The notes beneath the pieces were generated by a model. The model worked only from the letters and a program-made list of their open reading frames with translations, was not told the DNA's origin and searched no databases. A program made the position numbers and the translations under genes. DNA of 64,000 nucleotides, from assembly GCA_007116035.1 (NCBI GenBank), contig SKJG01000067.1, positions 1-64,000 on the forward strand, in the 5' to 3' direction. The number at the start of each line of letters is the position of its first letter. The stretch's first letter is position 1. This document shows, piece by piece, positions 319 through 61,410 of the stretch. This DNA comes from Thioalkalivibrio sp. (GTDB lineage: Bacteria > Pseudomonadota > Gammaproteobacteria > Ectothiorhodospirales > Ectothiorhodospiraceae).

Positions 319-552
319 TCAGCCCTTCTTCATCAGGAAGAAGAACTTCCCACCTTCCTCGCGATGCTCCAGGAGCTCGTTGCCGGTCTGCTTGGCGAAG
401 GCCTGGAAGTCCTTCACGGCACCGGGGTCGGTGGCGATGATGTGCAACACCTGACCGCTGTCCATCGACGAAAGCGCCTTCTTCGCGCGCAGGATCGGCA
501 GGGGGCAATTGAGGCCGGACGCATCCAGCTCTTGGTCGAAATTGGCCATCAC
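319..552 (-). CDS. tusA: Sulfur carrier protein TusA
   Basis: 77 aa, LDASGLNCPLPILRAKKAL motif (CPxP) of the TusA/SirA family. Confidence 0.92.
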   Translation of the reverse strand: MMANFDQELDASGLNCPLPILRAKKALSSMDSGQVLHIIATDPGAVKDFQAFAKQTGNELLEHREEGGKFFFLMKKG

Positions 553-695: not shown

Positions 696-1028
696 CTAAT
701 TCGACGCGACAATAGGCTTTCCGGCCCTGGCCCAGCCCACGATGCCCCCCACCAGGTTGTGCACATCGCGGATGCCCTGCTGCGCCAGGAAGGCGCAGGC
801 CTGCCCCGACCGTGCCCCGGTCTGGCAGTAGAGAACGACCGGTTTGTCTCCGGCCAGCTCGTCCTTCCGCAGAGGGATCAGGTGCAGGGGAATGGTTTCA
901 GCATGGGGCAGCACGCCACGCGCGGTCTCCGCCATGGAGCGCACGTCCACCAGGCGGTACTCCCGCCCCTCGGCGTCCCATTCCTCCAGGGTCTGCGGGG
1001 TAACTTCCGAAATCGCGACTCCGAACAT
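696..1028 (-). CDS. Rhodanese-domain protein
   Basis: 110 aa with YRLVDVRS and VVLYCQTGARSGQACAFLAQQG (active-site Cys loop); upstream of tusA. Confidence 0.9.
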   Translation of the reverse strand: MFGVAISEVTPQTLEEWDAEGREYRLVDVRSMAETARGVLPHAETIPLHLIPLRKDELAGDKPVVLYCQTGARSGQACAFLAQQGIRDVHNLVGGIVGWARAGKPIVASN

Positions 1029-1162
1029 GCCTCACCTCTCGTCGGGTCCGCCTCCAAGCCACCTGCCCTCCCAGCCTAGGCGCACACGAGACGGAACCGG
1101 ATTGTGTATCGATGCTCGAGGACCCAGAGTCCCCGAGACGAGCAGCTGGCAAGGATACTCCA

Positions 1163-1185
1163 CATATTAGCAGATGCCAATATAC
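1163..1185. promoter_or_regulatory. Candidate operator CATATTAG-CAGATG-CCAATATAC
   Basis: 7-bp arms with one mismatch and 6-bp spacer, in the divergent intergenic region between rhd (minus) and the ORF at 1277 (plus); same architecture as 61388-61410. Confidence 0.6.
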
Positions 1186-56975: not shown

Positions 56976-59900
56976 TCAGGCCGGCTGCGACTTGATCAGT
57001 TCCACCCGCGAACGGACATAGAGGTAGTACAGCACCGGGATGATCACCAGGGTGAGCATCGTCGAGACCAGGATGCCGAAGATCAGCGAGACCGCCAGGC
57101 CGCTGAAGATCGGATCATCAATGATGAACCCGGCGCCGACCATCGCCGCCAGCCCGGTCAGCACGATGGGCTTCGCGCGCACGGCACCGGCATTCACCAC
57201 CGCTTCGGTGACCTCGACCCCGCGACGGATCTCGAAGTTGATGAAATCCACCAGCAGGATCGAGTTGCGCACGATGATGCCAGCCAGCGCGATCATGCCG
57301 ATCATCGAGGTCGCGGTGAATTTCGCGTCCATGAAGAAGGTGTCCATCAGCGCATGCCCCGGCATCACGCCGATCACCGTCAAGGGGATCGGCGCCATGA
57401 TGATCAAAGGCACCATGTACGAGCGGAACTGGACGACCACCAGCAGGTAGATCAACAGCAGGCCGACCGAATATGCGATCCCCATGTCGCGGAAGGTCTC
57501 GTAGGTGACCTGCCATTCGCCGTCCCACTTCAGGCTGAAATTGTACGGATTGTCGGGCTGAGCAATGAACAGCTGGGTGAGCGGCTCGCCAAAGGCCATC
57601 GGCTTCTCGCGCAACTGGGAGAACAGGTCGAACATGCCATACAGCGGGCTGTCCACGCCACCCGCCTGATCACCGATCACGTAGACCACCGGCAGCAGGT
57701 TCTTGTGGTGGATGGAATGCTCGCGCGTGGTGTCGACGACGTTGACGACCTCGGAGATCGGGACCAGCGCACCCGTCTGTGCCCGTACGTGCAGACCCAT
57801 GATCGCGTCCAGACTGCCGAGATCGGCCTCCTCGAACTGCAGGCGCACCGGCACCGCGTATTTCACGTTGGTGCCGTAGAGGAAGGTCACATCCTCGCCG
57901 GAAAGCGCCGTTGCCACCGCGCTGACCACCGACTGCTGGGATACACCCAGGCGCGCCGCGCGCTCACGATCCACCCGAAGGATGTACTTCGGCCCCGGAT
58001 ACTCGACGGAATCATCGATATCCGTGATGTAGCGGGTGTTCTCGAAAACCTCGCGCACCTTCTTCGCGATCTCGATCTGGCCGGCGTAGTCGGGGCCGTA
58101 GATCTCGGCCACGATCGGCGACATCACCGGCGGCCCCGGCGGTACCTCGACCACCTTGACGCGGGCGCCGTGGCGATCGGCGATGGCATTGATCTCGGGC
58201 CGGGCCGCCAGCGCGATGTCGTGGCTCTTGCGCTTGCGATCGGCCGCGGCGGTCAGGTTCACCTGGATATCACCGAGGTTCGAACCCTCGCGCAGGTAAT
58301 ACTGGCGCACCAGGCCATTGAAGTTGATCGGCGCCGCGGTGCCCGCGTAGATCTGCACGTCCACCACCTCGGGGATGCCCTTGATGTAGTCGCCCATCTC
58401 GGCCAACACCTGCTTGGTGTGCTCCAGGCTGCTTCCCTCGGGCATGTCCAGCACCACCTGGAACTCGTTCTTGTCGTCGAACGGCAGCATCTTCAGCACC
58501 ACGACCTGGAAGTACACCAGCGACACCGACGCAAGAATCAGCACCAGCGTCCCGGCGAACATCAACAGGCGATTCAGCTTGGCCTTGGCGGTGGTGCCCA
58601 GGAAGGGTCGCAGGATCACGTTGAAGATCCGCATCAACTGTTTCGAGGCGGTCTCGGCGCTGTGCTCCTCGTTCCCGGACAGGATTGCCTGCTCGTGGCG
58701 CTCGGCATGGCGCCGCAGCACCTTGTACGTCAGCCAGGGCGTGACCACGAAGGCGACTGCCAGCGAGATGATCATCCCCAGGCTGGCGTTGATCGGGATC
58801 GGGCTCATGTACGGCCCCATCAGGCCGGTGACAAAGGCCATTGGCAGCAGGGCCGCGATCACGGTGAAGGTGGCCAGGATGGTTGGACCGCCCACCTCGT
58901 CGACGGCCTCCGGGATCGCCTCGAGGAACTTCTTCTTGCCCATGCTCATGTGCCGGTGGATGTTCTCCACCACCACGATGGCGTCATCGACCAAAATTCC
59001 GATGGAAAAAATCAGGGCGAACAGCGAGACCCGGTTCAGGGTGAAACCCCAGGCCCAGGAGGCGAACAGGGTGATCGCCAGGGTGATCACCACGGCGGTG
59101 CCAACGATGAAGGCCTCGCGCCATCCCAGCGCGATCCAGACCAGGATCACCACCGAACTCGTGGCAAAGATCAGCTTCGTGATCAGTGTCTTGGCCTTGT
59201 AATCCGCGGTCGCGCCGTAATTACGGGTGATACTGACCTCGACGCCATCGGGGATGTAGGTGCCACGGAGTTGCTCCAGCCGCGTCTCTAGGGCGCTGGC
59301 GATGTCCACCGCATTGGTGCCCGGCTGCTTGGCGATGGCGACGGTGACTGCGGGGTGCATTTCGCCGAAGTGGGCGTCCTCGCCGGACGCGGCCCCGTAG
59401 CCGAAGCTCACGCGCTGGGTGGCGTATCCCGGACCCTGCACGACCTCGGCGACATCGGAGAGATAAACCGGCCGGCCGTCGTTCATCCCGACCACCAGGG
59501 CGGCAAAATCCTGCGGGCGCGTGATGAAATCGCCCGCCTGCACCAGCACCTCGGCGTTGTCCCGGTAAAGGACCCCCGCGTCGCGGCTGAAATTGCTCGC
59601 CTGCAAGGCATTGCGCAGATCCTCGACCGCCAGATTGTGACCGGCCAGCGCCTCGGGGCGGAAACGCACGTGCACGACGTGGTCGGGACCACCAACCGTG
59701 TAGATGTCCCGGGTTCCCGGGACGCGCTTGAGTTCGGACTCGATCGCGTGCGCCACCGCGGCCAGGTCGTGACCGCCCCGGGTTTCGTCCTCGGTCCAAA
59801 GGGTCACGGTCACGATGGGCACGTCGTCGATGCCCATGGGCTTGATCAGTGGATCGCCCACCCCGAGGTTCTGGGGCAGCCAGTCCTGGTTGGAAAAGAC

Positions 59901-60293
59901 CTGCGTGTAGAGGCGCACGAGCGCATCGGTACGGTTCTCGCCGACCTTGAACTGGACCGTGATCTTGGCCATGTTCGGTTGCGAGGTGGAGTAGATGTCG
60001 TCGATCCCCTCGATCTCGGAGAGCACCTGCTCGGCGGGTGTCGCCACCAGCTGCGACACCTCCTCCGCGGTCGCCCCATGGAACGGGATGAAGACATCGG
60101 CGATGGTGACATTGATCTGCGGCTCTTCCTCGCGGGGCGTGACCATGATCGCGAACGCGCCCAGCAGCAGGCCCAGCAGCGCCAGCAGCGGGGTGATCTG
60201 GGTCGTCAGGAACTTCTGCGCGATGCGGCCCGAGATGCCCATTGGCTGCTCCGCCTGCGGCTGACCCTCTTGCGACTTTGCCTCTTCACTCAT
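56976..60293 (-). CDS. RND-family efflux transporter (AcrB/hydrophobe type)
   Basis: 1105 aa, 12-TM RND layout; VTPREEEPQINVTIADVFIPFHGATAEEVSQLVATPAEQVLSEI. Confidence 0.93.
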   Translation of the reverse strand: MSEEAKSQEGQPQAEQPMGISGRIAQKFLTTQITPLLALLGLLLGAFAIMVTPREEEPQINVTIADVFIPFHGATAEEVSQLVATPAEQVLSEIEGIDDIYSTSQPNMAKITVQFKVGENRTDALVRLYTQVFSNQDWLPQNLGVGDPLIKPMGIDDVPIVTVTLWTEDETRGGHDLAAVAHAIESELKRVPGTRDIYTVGGPDHVVHVRFRPEALAGHNLAVEDLRNALQASNFSRDAGVLYRDNAEVLVQAGDFITRPQDFAALVVGMNDGRPVYLSDVAEVVQGPGYATQRVSFGYGAASGEDAHFGEMHPAVTVAIAKQPGTNAVDIASALETRLEQLRGTYIPDGVEVSITRNYGATADYKAKTLITKLIFATSSVVILVWIALGWREAFIVGTAVVITLAITLFASWAWGFTLNRVSLFALIFSIGILVDDAIVVVENIHRHMSMGKKKFLEAIPEAVDEVGGPTILATFTVIAALLPMAFVTGLMGPYMSPIPINASLGMIISLAVAFVVTPWLTYKVLRRHAERHEQAILSGNEEHSAETASKQLMRIFNVILRPFLGTTAKAKLNRLLMFAGTLVLILASVSLVYFQVVVLKMLPFDDKNEFQVVLDMPEGSSLEHTKQVLAEMGDYIKGIPEVVDVQIYAGTAAPINFNGLVRQYYLREGSNLGDIQVNLTAAADRKRKSHDIALAARPEINAIADRHGARVKVVEVPPGPPVMSPIVAEIYGPDYAGQIEIAKKVREVFENTRYITDIDDSVEYPGPKYILRVDRERAARLGVSQQSVVSAVATALSGEDVTFLYGTNVKYAVPVRLQFEEADLGSLDAIMGLHVRAQTGALVPISEVVNVVDTTREHSIHHKNLLPVVYVIGDQAGGVDSPLYGMFDLFSQLREKPMAFGEPLTQLFIAQPDNPYNFSLKWDGEWQVTYETFRDMGIAYSVGLLLIYLLVVVQFRSYMVPLIIMAPIPLTVIGVMPGHALMDTFFMDAKFTATSMIGMIALAGIIVRNSILLVDFINFEIRRGVEVTEAVVNAGAVRAKPIVLTGLAAMVGAGFIIDDPIFSGLAVSLIFGILVSTMLTLVIIPVLYYLYVRSRVELIKSQPA

Positions 60294-61345
60294 CGGGACA
60301 CCTGCTGGCTTTCCTTCAGGAAGATCCCGGCATGCACCGGATCCAGCGCGACCCGCTCACCCTGGCGCAATCCGGCCAGCACCTCGAAGCCCTCCGGCAA
60401 TTCCCGGCCGACCCGGATCTGACGGAAGCCGATACGTCCGTCGGGATCGATGACGTAGACCGCGACGACCTCGCTGCGGAAGACCACGGCCTCGGACGGC
60501 ACCACCAGGCGCTGGTCCTCGCCGAGCTTGACCGCCGTCTTCACGAACATGCCCGGAAACAGGCCGGCATCCTCGGCCAGCGGCGGCAGGTTCACGCGTA
60601 CGCGAAAGGTGTTCGAGGAGGGATCGGCGTAGGGAAAGATCGTCAGGCTGTCGGCGCCGATCCGTTCGCCGGTTTCCAGGATCACCTGCGCCTCCCGATG
60701 CCTGCGCAGGTTCCCGATCACCTGCTGCGGTACGTTGATCTCGACCCGCAATTGCTCCAGGCTGATGCCGGTCACCAGGGGCGCACCCGGACTCACGGCC
60801 TCACCGACCTCGACATGACGCTCGATCACGATGCCGGCATAAGGCGCGACCACCGTGGCGTAACCGAGCTGCTCCTCAGCTTCGGCGAGGGCGGCCTGGG
60901 CCGACTCCAGTCGGGCCTGGGCCGAATCCCTGGCGGCGCGCGCACGGTCGAATTCCGCCTCGGAAACCAGACGTTCTTCGAAAATGCTCTCGATGCGGGC
61001 GAACTCGGAACGGGCCTCCGCGGCGCGCGCGCGCGCCTCCCGCAGGTTTCCCTCGGCCGAGCGCACACGGGCCTGTTGTTCGGTGTCACTCAGGCGCAGC
61101 ACCACATCGCCCTGCTCGACGAAGTCGTCGACGTCGTAAAGGACCTCCAGCACCCGCCCCGACGTCTGCGCGGAAATCGTCGACCGCTGCACGGCCTCGA
61201 CCCGGCCGTCCATGATCCGTTCCTGCATCAGCGTCTGCCGCTCGACCGTGGCCGTCAGAAACGGCAGTTCAACTGCGGAGGCCACCGGCGCGACCAGCAG
61301 CAGCGTCATCGCAGCCGCGATGCCCTTCATCCATTCAAGCGTCAT
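60290..61345 (-). CDS. RND efflux periplasmic adaptor subunit (membrane fusion protein)
   Basis: Start MTLEWMKGIAAAMTLLLVAPVASA; SGRVLEVLYDVDDFVEQGDVVLRL, coiled-coil hairpin, APYAGIVIERHVEVGE. Confidence 0.93.
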   Translation of the reverse strand: MTLEWMKGIAAAMTLLLVAPVASAVELPFLTATVERQTLMQERIMDGRVEAVQRSTISAQTSGRVLEVLYDVDDFVEQGDVVLRLSDTEQQARVRSAEGNLREARARAAEARSEFARIESIFEERLVSEAEFDRARAARDSAQARLESAQAALAEAEEQLGYATVVAPYAGIVIERHVEVGEAVSPGAPLVTGISLEQLRVEINVPQQVIGNLRRHREAQVILETGERIGADSLTIFPYADPSSNTFRVRVNLPPLAEDAGLFPGMFVKTAVKLGEDQRLVVPSEAVVFRSEVVAVYVIDPDGRIGFRQIRVGRELPEGFEVLAGLRQGERVALDPVHAGIFLKESQQVSR

Positions 61346-61387: not shown

Positions 61388-61410
61388 CATATTAGATATC
61401 CCTAATATAC
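61388..61410. promoter_or_regulatory. Candidate operator CATATTAG-ATATCC-CTAATATAC
   Basis: Perfect 7-bp arms, 6-bp spacer, 43 bp upstream of the adaptor start; matches 1163-1185. Confidence 0.65.

Follow-up and report, generated by a model that had tools for sequence, protein, structure and literature searches.

A probable inverted-repeat operator common to the rhd-tusA and RND promoters of Thioalkalivibrio and its predicted sulfur regulon

Two intergenic regions of a 64,000-nucleotide stretch of the genome of a Thioalkalivibrio, a sulfur bacterium of soda lakes (hereafter, the window), carry the same AT-rich inverted repeat, one before a rhodanese gene (rhd) and the other before an operon encoding an RND pump. 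Is this dyad an operator, which genes does it serve, and which protein would read it? A sequence-only reading of the window had placed two sites of one layout at 1163-1185 and 61388-61410, both intergenic, and considered two such copies improbable by chance. Our analysis bears this out, as both coordinates and layout are correct. Dyad 1 reads ATATTAG-CAGATG-CCAATAT and separates rhd, on the minus strand, from orf1277, on the plus strand. Dyad 2 reads ATATTAG-ATATCC-CTAATAT, has two perfect arms, can also be read on the other strand, and lies between the RND membrane-fusion gene (start at about 61345, minus strand) and a MIF-like gene (61546, plus strand). The features are summarized in Table 1.

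Table 1. Positions of the features discussed, given in the window or, where a contig is named, elsewhere in this genome (G000)
Feature	Position	Strand	Remarks
HdrC-like 4Fe-4S gene, start only (cut by contig end)	1..132	-	Hdr name by sequence inspection and gene order
tusA	319..552	-	PF01206
rhd, single-domain rhodanese	696..1028	-	PF00581
Proposed rhd -10, TATCCT, 17 bp from -35	1152..1157	-	Same 11-promoter comparison as for the -35
Operator dyad 1	1164..1183	.	Conserved 132-156 bp before rhd in 11/11 close orthologues
Proposed rhd -35, TTGGCA, within dyad 1	1175..1180	-	TTGG[CA][AG]-17-TANNNT in 11/11 orthologous promoters
orf1277, 103 aa	1277..1588	+	Divergent from rhd; no Pfam or NCBIfam match
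RND permease gene	56976..60293	-	PF00873
RND periplasmic adaptor (membrane-fusion) gene	60290..61345	-	TIGR01730 above cut-off; start 61345 inferred
Operator dyad 2, perfect arms, before RND operon	61389..61408	.	Conserved in 25/30 congeneric genomes
YgaP-like site	G000:C90:38458-38477		Before gene for 67-aa YgaP-like membrane protein, PF11127
Candidate ArsR gene	G000:C2:26699-26983		PF01022, 47.3 bits (cut-off 22)

At up to three mismatches, the window contained these two dyads only, and 100 dinucleotide-preserving shuffles yielded none; under a mononucleotide model, about 1e-5 matches would be expected per 64 kb and 0.001 per genome. Scanning the whole genome (3.03 Mb in 186 contigs, 99.67% complete, 66% GC) returned two exact matches to ATATTAG-N6-CNAATAT, both in the window, and the reversed pattern was absent even at two mismatches. 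Further, weaker dyads were found elsewhere in the genome at two mismatches, several of them in a conserved context. Judged from these sequence comparisons, the dyad is an operator-like element common to the rhd-tusA and RND promoters.

The rhd and RND sites

In orthologous loci, the gene order is rhd-tusA-hdrC-hdrB, with full HdrC- and HdrB-like genes after tusA (Hdr names by inspection), which places the operon in sulfane-sulfur oxidation. The dyad was present in every Thioalkalivibrio genome with a close rhd orthologue (11/11) and absent at the more distant rhd (60-68% identity) of a second Thioalkalivibrio group (16/16). It was also found 30-91 bp before rhd, with 0-2 mismatches, in all seven betaproteobacterial rhd-tusA loci compared (Parasulfuritortus, Thiobacillus, Gallionellaceae, and others). 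Because other rhd-tusA loci retain the dyad immediately upstream of rhd, this gene appears to be a better target than orf1277. No arsR gene was seen beside rhd in the window, where the first hdr gene is cut off by the contig end. Between rhd and tusA (680-705), we noticed a second ATTAG-like pair on the minus strand, ATTAGTACTTTCTTGTATTAG, whose AATTAG/GATTAG version is kept in six of eight related loci and which is possibly an internal site.

All 11 orthologous rhd promoters share TTGG[CA][AG] and TANNNT at a distance of 17 bp, with the -35-like TTGG inside one dyad arm. We therefore propose TTGGCA-17-TATCCT as the conserved rhd promoter, its -35 element lying within the dyad. The unusual CCAATAT arm of the rhd copy may be explained by its bases serving promoter and operator together. 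The sequence-only reading had instead assigned TTGACC and TAATAT as the -35 and -10 elements of rhd. We rejected this assignment, since TTGACC lies 20 bp from TAATAT, occurs in none of the 10 orthologous promoters compared, and is confined to this genome. Its idea of repression by promoter occlusion fared better and is probably right, as the dyad covers the proposed -35 element and the spacer of rhd.

At the 25 congeneric RND sites, the adaptor and pump genes lie on one side of the dyad, and on the opposite flank is proS, usually with the MIF-like gene, wherever the contig extends that far. Four of the five congeners without the site are less than 81% complete. Further genera of the family likewise have the RND dyad without a mismatch. 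By eye, the RND promoter of this genome showed no convincing -35/-10 hexamers. Information content at the RND site was 1.90 bits per column in the arms, 0.65 in the spacer, and 0.35 in the flanks; the corresponding values for the orthologous rhd promoters were 1.85, 0.89, and 0.78. Conserved arms with variable spacers and flanks at both sites are the signature of a protein site.

Further sites in the genus and the class

Among 30 Thioalkalivibrio genomes, 29 had at least one dyad at no more than one mismatch, and the backwards control gave zero in every genome. These genomes revealed a third conserved site, 8-18 bp before the start of a YgaP-like gene in all 26 genomes having that gene, with the end of the dyad just before the ribosome-binding site. 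In the genome studied here, the YgaP-like gene is followed by one for a metallo-beta-lactamase-fold protein.

Weaker sites probably precede genes for a DUF302 protein, a sulphur globule protein, and a secreted protein of unknown family in this genome. The top dyad by a matrix derived from the RND sites (score 34.4; G000:C127:1210-1229, loci L011 and L084) lies 57 bp before the DUF302 gene and has two mismatches to the strict pattern. Another (G000:C125:26318-26337, L010) is found upstream of a Gly/Tyr-rich secreted protein of the sulphur globule family PF17228 and is kept in other genomes of the genus (L047, L050, L053). A third (G000:C21:16443-16462, L003) precedes a secreted protein that contains a repeated ASGRFPTQAMED segment and matches no Pfam family, an arrangement seen in two other genomes (L069, L071). 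A dyad-like site (G000:C42:12478-12497, L005) lies upstream of a gene encoding a product with a 2Fe-2S ferredoxin-like segment; in the distant genome G223, an exact dyad is followed by a similar protein (L193).

We extended the comparison to 369 genomes of the class, which we take to be Gammaproteobacteria in the GTDB sense. The exact N6 dyad occurred in 94 of them and the reversed pattern in five, whereas adding a single base to the spacer (N7) left two. Such an inverted repeat with fixed spacing is what is expected of an operator of the SqrR/BigR/YgaV type. Of 68 class-wide loci examined, 61 had the site outside long open reading frames. Genes for rhodanese, TusA, persulfide-dioxygenase-like, YgaP-like, RND, or SqrR-like proteins were found at 18 of the 68 dyad loci compared with one of 37 control stretches taken from the same genomes (Fisher p 0.0014). 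About 50 of the 68 loci had none of the genes tested for, indicating that some sites have other roles or targets.

Several individual loci deserve mention. A dioxygenase-like gene occurs together with rhodanese at one (L249), and exact dyads precede two sulfur-related genes, one reading like ATP sulfurylase with a PUA_2 domain (L221, genome G176) and one thioredoxin-like (L232, genome G190). In three genomes, an exact dyad stands before an inorganic pyrophosphatase-like gene with no obvious sulfur link (family f132; L184, L185, L212).

Together, the sequence comparisons indicate that the dyad is a real operator with a coherent predicted sulfur regulon. Both checks suggested by the sequence-only reading turned out in its favor: a genome-wide motif scan found intergenic sites with a sulfur theme, and the dyad is conserved in orthologous promoters.

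Regulator class and candidate ArsR

One class-wide site, L240, has two overlapping exact dyads directly before an ArsR gene. Using this ArsR protein as query, we collected the 30 top-ranking SqrR-like genes in the class and searched for the dyad within 160 bp of their starts. It was found in 10, 17, and 24 of the 30 promoters at no more than one, two, and three mismatches, respectively. Shuffled promoters gave means of 0.00, 0.07, and 0.93 at the same thresholds, and the remaining 86 kb of these loci gave 0, 2, and 7 matches. The nearest solved structures to the L240-related SqrR-like proteins are BigR, SqrR, HlyU, NolR, and YgaV. The dyad in these promoters, the structural relationships, and the SqrR-like geometry of the site together assign it to the persulfide-sensing ArsR group. 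A persulfide-responsive ArsR of the BigR/SqrR type, which the sequence-only reading had named as a reasonable regulator, is thus well supported as the regulator class on sequence grounds, with the dyad in 17 of 30 SqrR-like arsR promoters.

That reading was also right that the regulator is not visible in the window; a single putative ArsR candidate is encoded elsewhere in the genome. Five proteins of the genome match HTH_5, and one only is strongly BigR-like. The candidate scores 81.7 bits against the BigR equivalog NF040642, below the curated cut-off of 155, and the only other match scores 38 bits. As this curated score was tested and lies below its threshold, we do not classify the candidate as BigR; none of the 30 congeners' ArsR proteins passes the cut-off either. 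The candidate is present in all 30 congeners at 92-100% identity, with both sensor cysteines (one in an ILC segment, one near the C terminus) in every case and in alignment with those of BigR and HlyU. Its nearest solved structures are BigR (3pqj, the closest), HlyU, YgaV, and SqrR. Relatives occur in 183 of the 369 class genomes (E <= 1e-25), mostly at 73-89% identity. Such an ArsR was found in 83 of 94 dyad genomes versus 100 of 275 others, an odds ratio of 13 that ignores phylogeny and genome size. The remaining proteins were set aside by inspection: L015 has an SmtB-like C-terminal metal-site pattern, L016 appears MarR-like, and L013 and L014 are devoid of the cysteine pair.

The candidate locus is unlinked to the dyad targets and has the order arsR-rhodanese-thioredoxin 2-secB, where thioredoxin 2 matches PF00085 and PF21352 and secB was named by eye. 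Autoregulation through the dyad would be expected of a locus of the SqrR/BigR type. We searched for a dyad upstream of the candidate arsR in 30 genomes and found it in none; many SqrR-like genes do have one. We found no paper on an arsR-secB regulator in the open literature. On the protein comparisons, this ArsR is the best candidate for the dyad-binding regulator in this genome.

In fold family and in both cysteines, the candidate and the SqrR-like proteins agree with SqrR of Rhodobacter capsulatus and YgaV of E. coli. The SqrR site has been reported as ATTC-N8-GAAT, and ygaP is a YgaV target (PMC9774250). The core ATTA-N8-TAAT found here has the same 4-8-4 geometry, whereas its inner half-site bases differ and do not match the reported sequence; a YgaP-type protein is likewise among the targets here. 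Unlike SqrR and YgaV, the candidate is unlinked and not self-regulated by the dyad, and its predicted targets are the RND pump and rhd-tusA-hdr. BigR (Xylella, Agrobacterium, Acinetobacter) controls a sulfur transferase/dioxygenase operon (PMC5823870), a pairing reminiscent of the dioxygenase-like gene with rhodanese at L249. It is the closest solved structure to the candidate, which nevertheless falls below the BigR cut-off. In Hyphomicrobium denitrificans, sHdrR and SoxR are ArsR repressors of sulfane-sulfur oxidation genes that respond through two cysteines (PMC12423496, PMC10451225); the main texts of these two papers give no operator sequence. The dyad-preceded operon here resembles the sHdrR system in encoding rhodanese, TusA, and Hdr proteins (Hdr by inspection). 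In Hyphomicrobium, sHdrR and SoxR are encoded in the sulfur-oxidation region; here, no arsR was seen next to rhd up to the contig end. HlyU of Vibrio cholerae, with its footprinted AT-rich dyad TAATTCAGACTAAATTA (PMC4330345), is of the same ArsR subgroup; in contrast, it raises transcription from far upstream and has a looser site.

Proposed mechanism, alternatives, and significance

We consider it probable that the dyad serves as operator for an ArsR repressor of the SqrR/BigR/YgaV kind that responds to persulfide (sulfane sulfur), here most likely the secB-linked ArsR. A reduced ArsR dimer would bind ATATTAG-N6-CTAATAT and cover the core promoter, namely the -35 element and spacer at rhd and, for the YgaP-like gene, the stretch immediately preceding the ribosome-binding site. 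This would silence rhd-tusA-hdr and the RND pump, together with the YgaP-like/metallo-beta-lactamase pair and probably a small number of other sulfur genes. When sulfane sulfur builds up, a polysulfide bridge would form between the two ArsR cysteines, the DNA would be released, and the regulon would be switched on. The repressor would most likely be the sole BigR-like ArsR, encoded apart from its targets. In Rhodobacter, thioredoxin 2 reduces the SqrR polysulfide link and restores repression (PMC10044876), and the thioredoxin 2 of the arsR locus could likewise reset the repressor here. We infer binding, repression, the inducer, and the identity of the binder in this genome, with occlusion deduced from the site position and from characterised family members.

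The dyad could also be an operator bound in this genus by a winged-helix regulator that is not BigR-like, the secB-linked ArsR controlling something else. We regard this as unlikely, although the candidate arsR is itself without a dyad and lies apart from all the targets, and, of the dyad genomes devoid of a candidate orthologue, four encode a different SqrR-like protein, while in seven the top matches include neither. Against it, no other protein here is strongly BigR-like, the candidate is present in all 30 congeners, the remaining HTH_5 proteins are devoid of the cysteine pair, and SqrR-like genes themselves carry the dyad. Considerably less probable is that an ArsR-type protein binds the dyad but senses another signal, such as disulfide stress, a metal, or oxygen. 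ArsR proteins do sense many signals, the inducer here is a predicted one, and RND pumps and YgaP-like proteins could be of use under several kinds of stress. However, the recognisable targets are dominated by rhodanese, TusA, Hdr, persulfide-dioxygenase-like, and sulphur globule genes, and the cysteine positions agree with the persulfide-sensing group. In a genome of 66% GC, promoters between genes are AT-rich, and the dyads might in principle be promoter sequence alike by chance; the empty shuffles, the drop from 94 to two genomes on a one-base spacer change, and the conserved arms with variable spacers refute this, and we give it practically no credence.

With a persulfide-responsive ArsR as the preferred reading, the switch is most likely of a known kind, a sulfane-sulfur-relieved operator, whose site and regulon are newly delineated here. 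We found no published ATATTAG-N6-CTAATAT operator in the open literature; two original BigR papers lay outside this search, so one may exist. A broader proposal, which we hold to be about evenly poised, sees in the highly conserved ArsR encoded beside rhodanese, thioredoxin 2, and secB a persulfide sensor of class-wide reach, uncharacterised and non-self-regulated, that would use ATATTAG-N6-CTAATAT to control rhodanese/TusA/Hdr and YgaP-like genes together with those for sulphur globule proteins and RND efflux.

In this branch of haloalkaliphilic sulfur oxidisers, sulfur sensing is, to our knowledge, little characterised; sHdrR and SoxR come from an alphaproteobacterium. The present analysis yields a precise operator with its predicted regulon and, for each genome, one candidate regulator, and each of these can be tested directly. 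An RND pump comes under the same predicted control as sulfane-sulfur enzymes in most Thioalkalivibrio genomes, in further genera of the family, and in some genomes at a greater distance, which suggests that a reactive sulfur compound is exported or protected against. If the broader proposal is true, a class-wide ArsR sensor would tie the RND pump to sulfane-sulfur stress.
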